Part shown: positions 13,960-28,822 of the stretch, piece after piece
Layout of the letters: every line of letters begins with the position of its first letter
Position numbering within the stretch: position 1 is the stretch's first letter
Source of the DNA: Rhodobacter sp.
GTDB taxonomy: Bacteria > Pseudomonadota > Alphaproteobacteria > Rhodobacterales > Rhodobacteraceae
Assembly (NCBI GenBank): GCA_022340385.1
Contig: JAJDOB010000278.1
Coordinates: 1-33,011, forward strand
Direction: 5' to 3'
DNA length: 33,011 bases
Program-made: the position numbers and the translations under genes
Notes under the pieces: model-generated
Database searches by the model: none
Told to the model about the DNA's origin: nothing
Seen by the model: the letters and a program-made list of their open reading frames with translations, nothing else

Positions 13960-14988
13960 TCATCCTTCGAACAGATCACTTTGCCCCGGGGCGCGGGGCG
14001 GTTCCAGCCCCAGATGCGCCCAGGCTTTCGGGCCCAGCATCCGCCCGCGCGGGGTGCGTTGCAACAGGCCCTGCTGCAAGAGGAACGGCTCGATCACCTC
14101 TTCCAGCGCATCGCGGCTTTCGCTGAGCGCCGCCGCCATGGTTTCCACCCCGACCGGCCCGCCGCCGAAATTCTCGGCGACCATCGACAGATAGCGGCGG
14201 TCGGCGCCGTCAAGTCCCAGATGATCGACGCCAAGCCGGGTCAGCGCGCTGTCGGCAATCGCGCGGGTCAGCCGCCCGTCGCCCTCGACCACCGCGAAAT
14301 CCACCACCCGCCGCAGCAGCCGCCCGGCAATGCGCGGCGTGCCGCGGGCGCGGCGCGCGATCTCGCGCACGCCGGCGTCTTCGGCCGGAATATCAAGCAG
14401 CCGCGCCCCGCGCGCCACGATCTGGTGCAGTTCCTCGACCGTGTAGAACTGCAACCGGACCGGAATACCGAAGCGGTCGCGCAGCGGCGTCGTCAGTAGC
14501 CCCAGCCGCGTGGTCGCCCCGACCAGCGTGAAGGGTTGCAACTCGATACGAACGGTGCGCGCGGCCGGGCCCTCGCCGATCACCAGGTCAAGCTCGAAAT
14601 CCTCCAGCGCCGGGTACAGCACCTCTTCGACCACCGGGTTCAGGCGGTGAATCTCGTCGATGAACAGCACGTCATGGCGGTCCAGATTGGTCAGGATCGC
14701 CGCCAGGTCGCCGGCACGGGCCAGCACCGGGCCAGAGGTCATGCGGAAATTCACCCCCAACTCGCGCGCGATGATCTGCGCCAGCGTTGTCTTGCCCAGC
14801 CCGGGCGGGCCGTGAAACAGCGCGTGATCCATCGCCTCGCCGCGCTTGCGGGCGCTTTCGATGAATACCCGCAGATTGGCGCGCGCCTCGGCCTGTCCGG
14901 TAAAGGCATCCAGCGTCTGCGGACGCAGGGCGCGGTCCAGATCCTCGGGCCGCTTTTCCGGGCGCAGGGTCGGGTCGGGTTCGTTCAT
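13960..14988 (-). CDS. ruvB: Holliday junction branch migration ATPase RuvB
   Basis: A 342-residue AAA+ motor. Walker A GPPGLGKT is at 60-67, Walker B with DEIH at 111-114, sensor I at GATTR (157-161), and the arginine finger in TPLRDRFG (Arg170). A winged-helix DNA-binding domain follows, with [11 protein letters not shown] and the PRGR motif near the end. It drives branch migration of Holliday junctions with RuvA. Start ATG 14988 overlaps the stop of the GIY-YIG gene as ATGA; a longer frame exists upstream but lies within that gene. In most relatives ruvB directly follows ruvA; here a 987-bp gene separates them. Confidence 0.98.
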
Positions 14989-15971
14989 GCGTTCAATCCG
15001 AATTGTCGGGTGTGCAGACGGTTCATCCAAGTATGTTCCAGAACCACGATTTCGTCATGCAGCATATCGGGCGACACGCGTTCAAGAATCGAAAACCGGA
15101 AATTCACCGGATCGCGGTGGCGCAACTTTGCGGTCACACCACCCGCGCCCGCGACATGTGTCTGCCAGCGTCCCAGCAGATTATTCTGCCCATAGGCTGA
15201 CCCGACATAACGCGCGCCATCGGTTTCGTCCACGATCAGATAGATGCCGCGCCACTCGCGCAGACGCGCCGCCCAGGCTTCCGGCAGCACCCTAACCTCG
15301 GCACCACTCATGATGAACTGCCGCCAGTCCGGCGGTGCTGCGGCAAGGGCTGGCTCTGCTGTGATCTGCTTTACCGGCAGGTCCAGATTTGCCGCGACCC
15401 GCACATAGGTCCGCCTATAGCATTTCGACTTGATCTTGAATCGTTTATTCGCTGCCTCTCCCTCCGGTCGAACGCGAAAAACGATATGCGGTGTTACAAC
15501 ATAAAGTCGAAACGCTTTAACCGGCGGCGCAACGCACATCCGCCCCCTCAGATCGGCCAGCGCATCCATCATGCGCATGTCAAACCGTATTTGCTGATCC
15601 ACGCGCCGGATGTTGTGGGCGGGGGCCACATCGGTCGCGCCATAATCATGTTCCAGTTCCGCAAACCGCGGGTCGTGATATATCTCGACCGTTGGCAATG
15701 TCTCGAACCTGTCAATGTGGTAGACCCCCACAAAGACCATGTCACCCGCACTGCTTGGTACAAACGTCGCAACATATGGCCGGTTGCGCAAAGTCCGCTC
15801 GGCCTGGGTCGAATGTACACTTTGATAGGCATCAAATAAATATGGCCGCTCTGCGGCAAGCCACGGAAGCATCCGGCGCAGTCTCGGCAATTGCGTCGTG
15901 TGAAATATCACCGATACATCCGCAGGCTCCAAATCACACATTCGCAGTAAGCCGTTCAAGGTCAGAGCCAC
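14985..15971 (-). CDS. GIY-YIG nuclease-domain protein inserted between ruvA and ruvB
   Basis: A 328-residue protein. The C-terminal domain (about 238-328) has the GIY-YIG fold signatures: GIYLI (242-246), RYVGSAYG (254-261), the catalytic-type arginine in LGRW (Arg268), a glutamate in LEHTWMNRL (Glu312) and a terminal GLN. The N-terminal about 150 residues ([32 protein letters not shown]) look like a distinct module fused to the nuclease. The middle (K152 to Y185) is encoded by a repeated DNA element also found at 28718-28822. The GTG start at 15971 lies 3 bp after the ruvA stop with an AAGGGG site inside ruvA; the stop overlaps ruvB by 4 bases. Hand-counted GC over 15541-15840 is 167/300 (56%), well below neighbouring genes, suggesting acquisition. 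A role in junction or branched-DNA cleavage is inference. Confidence 0.82.
15415..15519 (-). repeat. Dispersed 105-bp palindromic-end element, copy A (inside the GIY-YIG gene)
   Basis: Read on the minus strand, this 105-bp segment aligns without gaps to 28718-28822 on the plus strand, with 13 mismatches counted by hand (about 88% identity). It begins TAAAGCGTTTCGACTT and ends with AAGTCGAAA plus 8 bases, so TTTCGACTT/AAGTCGAAA form 9-bp terminal inverted repeats. Its length is a multiple of three, and the segment is read through as codons 152-185 of the GIY-YIG protein. In that frame copy B has a TAG where copy A has GAG. Confidence 0.85.
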
Positions 15972-27865: not shown

Positions 27866-28021
27866 GAAACGGCGCCGCGCCGGCGCCCGGATGTCCCCGC
27901 TTGGACCGGCAAAATGGCCCACCCGGGGCGCAGCATCAGGAAAAGCACACTTGGTCTTTCTCCACCCAGAACCGTCCGCATTCCATTTGCGCCGATCCGG
28001 GTTTTCGTCCATGACATCGCC

Positions 28022-28720
28022 ATGACACTTCGCCTGAAGGCCCTCTCTGTTCACCTGCTGACCGCCACGGGCGCCGTTTTCGCGATGCTGGCGCTGCTGG
28101 CGGCGGTCGACGAGAAATGGGGGCTGATGTATGTCTGGCTGGTCGTGGCTTTCGTGGTCGATGGCATAGACGGACCGCTGGCGCGCAAATACGACGTCCA
28201 CACCCACGCGCCGCAATATGACGGCGTGATCATGGACATGATCGTCGACTACCTGACCTATATTTTCATCCCGGCCTATGCGCTGTTCAAGCATCCCGAT
28301 CTGCTGCCGGGGTGGACAGGCTGGGTGGTGATCATCGTCATCACCTTTGCCAGCGCCATGTACATGGCCGACACCCGCATGAAAACAAAGGATTTTTCAT
28401 TTTCCGGCTTTCCGGCCTGCTGGAATATGGTGGTGATCGTGATGTTCGCGCTGAAACCGAATTTCTGGGCCATTCTGTTCATCGTGGTCGTGCTGGCGGC
28501 GGCGATGTTCATGCCGCTGAAATTCGTGCATCCGGTGCGCACCGACCGCTGGCGCTGGCTGTCGCTGCCGGTTGCCCTGGGCTGGACCTTCTTTGCCGGC
28601 TGGGCGGCCTGGGTCGATTTCGACCCGCAAAGCTGGGCGCACTGGGGACTGATCCTGACCTCGCTTTACCTGGCCTTCGCCGGGATCGTTCAACAGATAT
28701 TCCCCGAGAACGCGAAGTAA
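28022..28720 (+). CDS. pcs: Phosphatidylcholine synthase Pcs
   Basis: A 232-residue integral membrane CDP-alcohol phosphatidyltransferase. The active-site pattern is present: D47-x2-D50-G-x2-A-R55, then G68-x3-D72-x3-D76, followed by the VDYLTYIFIPAYAL stretch typical of the bacterial phosphatidylcholine synthases of rhizobia and rhodobacters. It condenses CDP-diacylglycerol with choline in the inner membrane. Several further helices follow. Start ATG 28022 gives the normal family length; no strong ribosome binding site is seen. It lies 156 bp downstream of xerC, without a supported gene between. Its stop codon TAA forms the first bases of the dispersed repeat at 28718-28822. Confidence 0.9.
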   Translation: MTLRLKALSVHLLTATGAVFAMLALLAAVDEKWGLMYVWLVVAFVVDGIDGPLARKYDVHTHAPQYDGVIMDMIVDYLTYIFIPAYALFKHPDLLPGWTGWVVIIVITFASAMYMADTRMKTKDFSFSGFPACWNMVVIVMFALKPNFWAILFIVVVLAAAMFMPLKFVHPVRTDRWRWLSLPVALGWTFFAGWAAWVDFDPQSWAHWGLILTSLYLAFAGIVQQIFPENAK

Positions 28721-28822
28721 AGCGTTTCGACTTTATGTCGAAACTCCGCATATCGTTTTGCCCGTTCGACCGTAGCGAGAGGCGGCGAATAAACGATTCA
28801 AACTTAAGTCGAAATACCATAG
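28718..28822 (+). repeat. Dispersed 105-bp palindromic-end element, copy B (after pcs)
   Basis: This copy matches the minus strand of 15415-15519 over its full length without gaps (13 mismatches by hand). It has the same 9-bp terminal inverted repeats TTTCGACTT and AAGTCGAAA, plus an internal palindrome TTTCGAC-TTTAT-GTCGAAA (28725-28743). Its first three bases are the stop codon of pcs, so it marks the exact gene end and may replace or act as the 3' untranslated structure. Confidence 0.85.

Follow-up and report, generated by a model that had tools for sequence, protein, structure and literature searches.

The window analysed here, a 33,011-nucleotide stretch of a draft Rhodobacter sp. genome (90.6% complete, 305 contigs), carries the same repeat twice, once translated in frame within a GIY-YIG gene and once downstream of another gene, and this raises the question of what the repeat is and how it came to be read as protein. 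The GIY-YIG gene sits between two genes that, judged by eye from their translations, we take to be ruvB-like and ruvA-like. The gene upstream of the second copy presumably encodes a multi-pass membrane protein, phosphatidyltransferase-like to the eye. The features concerned are the following.

14985..15971, minus strand: GIY-YIG gene of 328 codons, with an N-terminal module and the GIY-YIG domain (residues 242-293)
15415..15519, minus strand: full-length copy of the element, read in frame within the GIY-YIG gene, as a 105-bp match including the TA at both ends
15416..15517, minus strand: the 102-bp insertion (core of 100 bp and one duplicated TA), codons 152-185, K152 to Y185, delimited by homologues and by the TA-to-TA distance of 102
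15518..15519, minus strand: left TA of the target duplication, the target being read as TTAG and the pre-insertion sequence as GTT AGG
15416..15417, minus strand: right TA of the target duplication
15493..15517, minus strand: left terminal inverted repeat, which matches IS630-family elements at their transposase-3' end
15418..15442, plus strand: right terminal inverted repeat, which matches IS630-family elements at their transposase-5' end
15438..15442, plus strand: GAATC (GANTC, a CcrM-type motif), position 21 from the right end
28718..28822, plus strand: second element copy, beginning with the TAA that stops the gene upstream
28795..28799, plus strand: GATTC (GANTC) of the second copy
27914..28720, plus strand: gene stopped by the TAA of the second copy, start codon uncertain

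Aligned without gaps, the copies at 15415-15519 on the minus strand and at 28718-28822 on the plus strand agree at 92 of 105 positions (87.6%), as an earlier sequence-only reading of this DNA had claimed. The likeness ends abruptly at either edge, where the flanks are unrelated, and chance is excluded (E = 9e-32 for the second copy against the first). The 105-bp match is the 102-bp unit extended to both flanking TAs and one further base. In the frame of the gene the second copy reads VRP*REAAN and the GIY-YIG copy VRPEGEAAN, in agreement with the TAG versus GAG difference reported earlier, and an intergenic sister copy (L004) has the frame-preserving GAG as well. The 9-bp inverted repeat TTTCGACTT that had been described at the ends is perfect and real, but it is merely the core of imperfect terminal repeats of ~25 bp.

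Homologues of the GIY-YIG protein were sought in 298 sampled Rhodobacteraceae genomes, and those of the family run straight across the site without K152-Y185. In the closest ones (46-47% over the whole length) two residues lie between the aligned parts, against 36 in the GIY-YIG protein of the window, as a 102-bp insertion predicts. Deleting the 102-bp unit, which takes one of the two TAs with it, leaves V-R across GTT AGG and restores the length of the homologues. Residues K152 to Y185 are therefore inserted, and the earlier estimate of about 34 residues added in frame turns out to be exact, since 102 bp from TA to TA make 34 codons. The region of the GIY-YIG motif aligns without gaps with close homologues. 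An AlphaFold2 model built from 14 sequences has a mean pLDDT of 84; residues 155-184 are the sole stretch below 50, the remainder being well folded, and in the model they form a disordered loop that joins two strands upstream of the nuclease domain. The insert had been placed between the N-terminal module and the nuclease; it does lie upstream of the nuclease domain, but ~55 residues before the GIY-YIG match and off the exact border. It is probably nearly neutral for the nuclease, and since this copy is near the consensus the insertion looks young.

At the second copy, homologues of the protein encoded at 27914..28720 stop no more than 4 residues from the same place, indicating that the element swapped the stop codon of this gene without noticeable change to the protein.

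The two window copies are not the only ones, and the dispersed family proposed for this lineage is borne out by 12 near-full copies and five fragments in the genome of the window, the near-full copies being 84-94% identical and at unrelated loci. The consensus of the element is TAARGCGTTTCGACTTTATGTTGAAACACCGCATATCGTTTTTCGCGTTCGACCGTAGGGAGAGGCAGCGAACAAACGATTCAAGATCAAGTCGAAATGCTATAG. Its core of 100 bp, well within the limit of about 400 bp taken here for a MITE, folds as one long hairpin and has reading frames that are open in many copies, yet it holds no transposase gene, and the ORFs that cross it belong to host genes only. The stem is conserved with compensatory changes, 27 of 33 pairs differing on both sides, although these counts are inflated by an alignment that includes both strands of some palindromes. 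A family-wide search with a covariance model of the element found it in 74 of 397 sampled Rhodobacteraceae genera, in a survey whose per-genome copy counts are to be read as "at least", and in one of about 285 other alphaproteobacterial genomes. Named carriers include Ruegeria, Sulfitobacter, Aliiroseovarius and Rhodophyticola. Variants of the ends and the stem tend to be common to the copies of one genome, as expected of lineage-specific bursts. Rfam covariance models gave no match at gathering score at six element loci, with sub-threshold matches solely outside the element, and phage records searched with the element gave no match. The openly licensed papers searched held no description of this Rhodobacteraceae family, which appears to be undescribed so far.

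Some occurrences deserve separate mention. Among viral contigs a single locus carries a copy (L356, IMGVR_UViG_2837687090_000002), close to the end of the retrieved stretch. A copy in a Phycisphaerae MAG (L310, OFTM5) lies on a contig that is most likely mis-binned Rhodobacteraceae DNA. Four copies of one genome (G043; L093, L120, L121 and L129) lie within a larger repeat whose conserved flanks read CAATGCGTCCGACC..., and in another (G395) several contigs (C1, C7, C15 and C20) end inside or at a copy, which indicates that the repeat breaks short-read assemblies and that copy numbers are underestimated. On roseobacter conjugative plasmids (L026-L028, H6-H23) a partial copy recurs at a conserved position next to genes for type IV secretion and is in part annotated as a hypothetical protein.

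The ends of the element point to its origin. They were compared in 169 unique full copies, comprising a first placement set of 113 full copies and a partly overlapping second set from named genomes. TA is present at both ends in 103 of the 169, and the TA-to-TA distance is 102 in 58 of these 103. The reconstructed target is YTAR, mainly CTAG, in 82.5% of the copies with both TAs, against a background of about 20% of non-coding TA sites. Related genomes contain elements of the IS630 family (Tc1/mariner superfamily) in CTAG, TTAG and similar sites. These resemble the short element in the terminal 25 bp, in a GANTC at position 21, in a CTAG-like target and in the duplication of TA; they differ from its geneless 100-bp core in being 1.05 kb long and encoding a DDE_3 transposase. 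At each end as many as 20 of 25 bases agree, and the first 12 bases of TA-AAGCGTTTCGAC are identical at the left end in two IS630 loci (L204 and L217). Of 20 IS630 elements (loci L203-L243), 19 have GANTC at a distance of exactly 21 bases from the transposase-5' end and none has it at the transposase-3' end; the short copies have it at the right end in 99 of 169 and at the left end in four, so that the match between the two kinds of element is end-specific.

The ends, the target and the TA duplication together point to an IS630-derived MITE as the nature of the repeat, and by sequence likeness it is probably moved in trans by IS630-family transposases. Neither an IS630-type transposase nor an autonomous partner element was found in the draft genome of the window. 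Across the 397 genera the MITE and IS630 are unassociated (14 genera with both, about 13 expected), which fits relics of past transposition and lends no positive support to the link.

The placement of the copies is far from even. Within the 113-copy set a plus-strand gene ends exactly at element bases 1-3 in 48 cases, whereas any other position accounts for two at most. One end or both form the stop codon of a neighbouring gene in 88 of the 169 unique full copies, the others being mostly intergenic, and in the genome of the window 10 of the 12 near-full copies form a stop. The target-site mix leads one to expect about 19%, a figure that derives from a simple gene predictor, and this leaves an excess for selection or function to explain. 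At 69 stop-codon ends the reconstructed pre-insertion codons are TAG (46) and TAA (21), and the present stops are TAA (41) and TAG (28). The end placed on the stop is the one able to make TAA or TAG: in one genome (G000) TAA arises at the left end and mostly TAT at the right, and left ends sit on stops; in another (G003) the left end yields TAT and the right TAA, and it is right ends that sit on stops. Selection would be the reason for this placement.

Insertion within genes is rare, with 2 events among the 169 unique full copies (about 1%). The second in-frame case, of 102 bp and in the opposite orientation, is in a TraA/RecD-like relaxase-helicase gene, of which an uncultured Rhodobacteraceae MAG (CATOSB01) has two identical copies (L298 and L329); the sole homologue of the protein is shorter there, but the alignment is too divergent for the edges to be fixed. 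Plasmid matches in conjugation genes were considered as further in-frame copies, and the three inspected proved to be situated at a gene end or on short annotated ORFs. Open frames over copies in two genomes (G065 and G272) and over L003 are read-through of non-coding frames.

A coherent account of these observations is that a 100-bp hairpin MITE inserts into YTAR, mainly CTAG, with duplication of the TA, an IS630-family transposase probably acting on it in trans. One such element landed in TTAG, at a place in the GIY-YIG gene that encodes a loop. A core of 100 bp plus the 2 bp of the duplicated TA is divisible by three, and this copy lacks the TAG common in its sisters, so that the gene stayed readable throughout and gained 34 residues. 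Elsewhere the family persists mainly at harmless sites, either in intergenic DNA or at the TA of a stop, where the first base of the element (A or G) following the TA restores TAA or TAG. We hold with high confidence that the repeat is a non-autonomous MITE of IS630 type, probably mobilised in trans, which lies in frame in the GIY-YIG loop and extends the protein by 34 residues, and whose sisters survive mainly where they do no harm. As judged from the sequence comparison, the GIY-YIG copy is mobile DNA turned protein, an uncommon event but a clean example.

Other explanations fare less well. Gene conversion or local duplication, in place of transposition, might be suggested as the source of the window copies by their sharing one 33-kb contig, but ten more near-full copies lie on other contigs, several of them closer to the GIY-YIG copy (91-94%) than is the second window copy (88%), and the flanks have nothing in common; this origin can practically be discounted. 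The sequence-only reading had likened the repeat to the Rickettsia palindromic elements (RPEs), and a family specialised for in-frame invasion of genes, adding peptides to proteins, would share with them a palindromic unit of about 100 bp, in-frame insertion and several frames open in many copies; the relaxase-helicase gene provides a second in-frame case. As a gene-invading family the repeat does not live up to that likeness: in-frame copies inside genes are frequent in Rickettsia (PMC10969869) but only two intragenic events are counted here among 169 copies, and TA duplication at CTAG with IS630 ends accounts for the family without any such specialisation, which we regard as very improbable.

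A more serious contender is that the family is kept mainly as a 3' element at stops, acting as a bidirectional terminator or stabilising the 3' ends of mRNAs. The 88 of 169 copies on a stop codon, against about 19% expected, and the compensatory changes at 27 of 33 stem pairs would suit such a role. Yet a strong U-tract is absent, the element has a patchy distribution (74 of 397 genera) with lineage-wise expansion, the ends of a transposon are also expected to show compensatory change, the pair count takes in some palindromes on both strands, and the 19% leans on the simple gene predictor. We therefore consider a 3'-end function unlikely as the main reason for its persistence, and retain the IS630-derived MITE as the preferred reading.

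Several known systems resemble this MITE. RPEs are likewise palindromic, about 100-150 bp long, and insert in frame to add a few tens of residues. IS630-like ends distinguish the present element, and we know of no established mobiliser of RPEs. RPEs, compared here by description only, are often in genes (PMC10969869), against 2 of 169 copies of this element. The closest parallel is the pneumococcal RUP with IS630-Spn1: in the sections of PMC2229807 and PMC3049150 drawn on here, RUP is about 100 bp long, with IS630-like terminal inverted repeats, a duplicated TA target and no transposase of its own, and IS630-linked MITEs are thus already known from pneumococcus. According to the same sections RUP differs in host and sequence and all six of its frames contain stops, while some Rhodobacteraceae copies have open frames; half of the Rhodobacteraceae copies are on stop codons, unlike RUP.

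Other bacterial MITEs, namely ERIC/RU-1, Correia/NEMIS and the Coxiella QMITE, are mostly TA-ended and some are fused to genes in frame, but they differ in sequence and host, and the portions of the papers used here (PMC2229807, PMC5896051) do not report the rebuilding of stop codons as their main placement. In-frame fusion of MITEs to genes is described, as far as the consulted parts of the literature go, from Rickettsia, Neisseria, enterobacteria, Coxiella and others (PMC10969869, PMC5896051, PMC2229807). The CcrM-associated intergenic repeats (CIR) of Caulobacter are also alphaproteobacterial, about 100-110 bp long and TA-ended with GANTC, but, in the part of PMC2229807 that describes them, they have two arms with GANTC in the loop and no terminal inverted repeat, are absent from genes and carry stops in all frames. 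The present element is one long hairpin with paired ends and GANTC in the terminal repeat, and CIR is set apart from it by that partial description. We would class the element as a new family of IS630-type MITEs, unusual in its preference for stop codons.

GANTC is kept in the IS630 elements despite a variable middle base and variable flanks and, being kept amid this variation, may be functional in the ends of both MITE and IS630. Dam links the transposition of IS10 and IS50 to replication, and an analogous role can be imagined for CcrM. The site methylated by CcrM is GANTC (PMC2229807). It is conceivable, though we put this forward tentatively, that the Rhodobacteraceae share an IS630/MITE system in which the base after the TA rebuilds stops, making them safe harbours, and in which GANTC at position 21 of the transposase-5' end couples transposase expression or transposition to replication through CcrM.

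The GIY-YIG gene shows a non-coding mobile hairpin turned into protein in a bacterium that is GC-rich and whose family is largely free-living, and homologues place the insertion to the codon. The 169 unique copies form a large natural data set on how TA-targeting transposons persist in compact genomes, and the route that the family points to is landing in stop codons and then rebuilding them. If the conserved GANTC is functional, alphaproteobacterial IS630 transposition would be tied to CcrM methylation.
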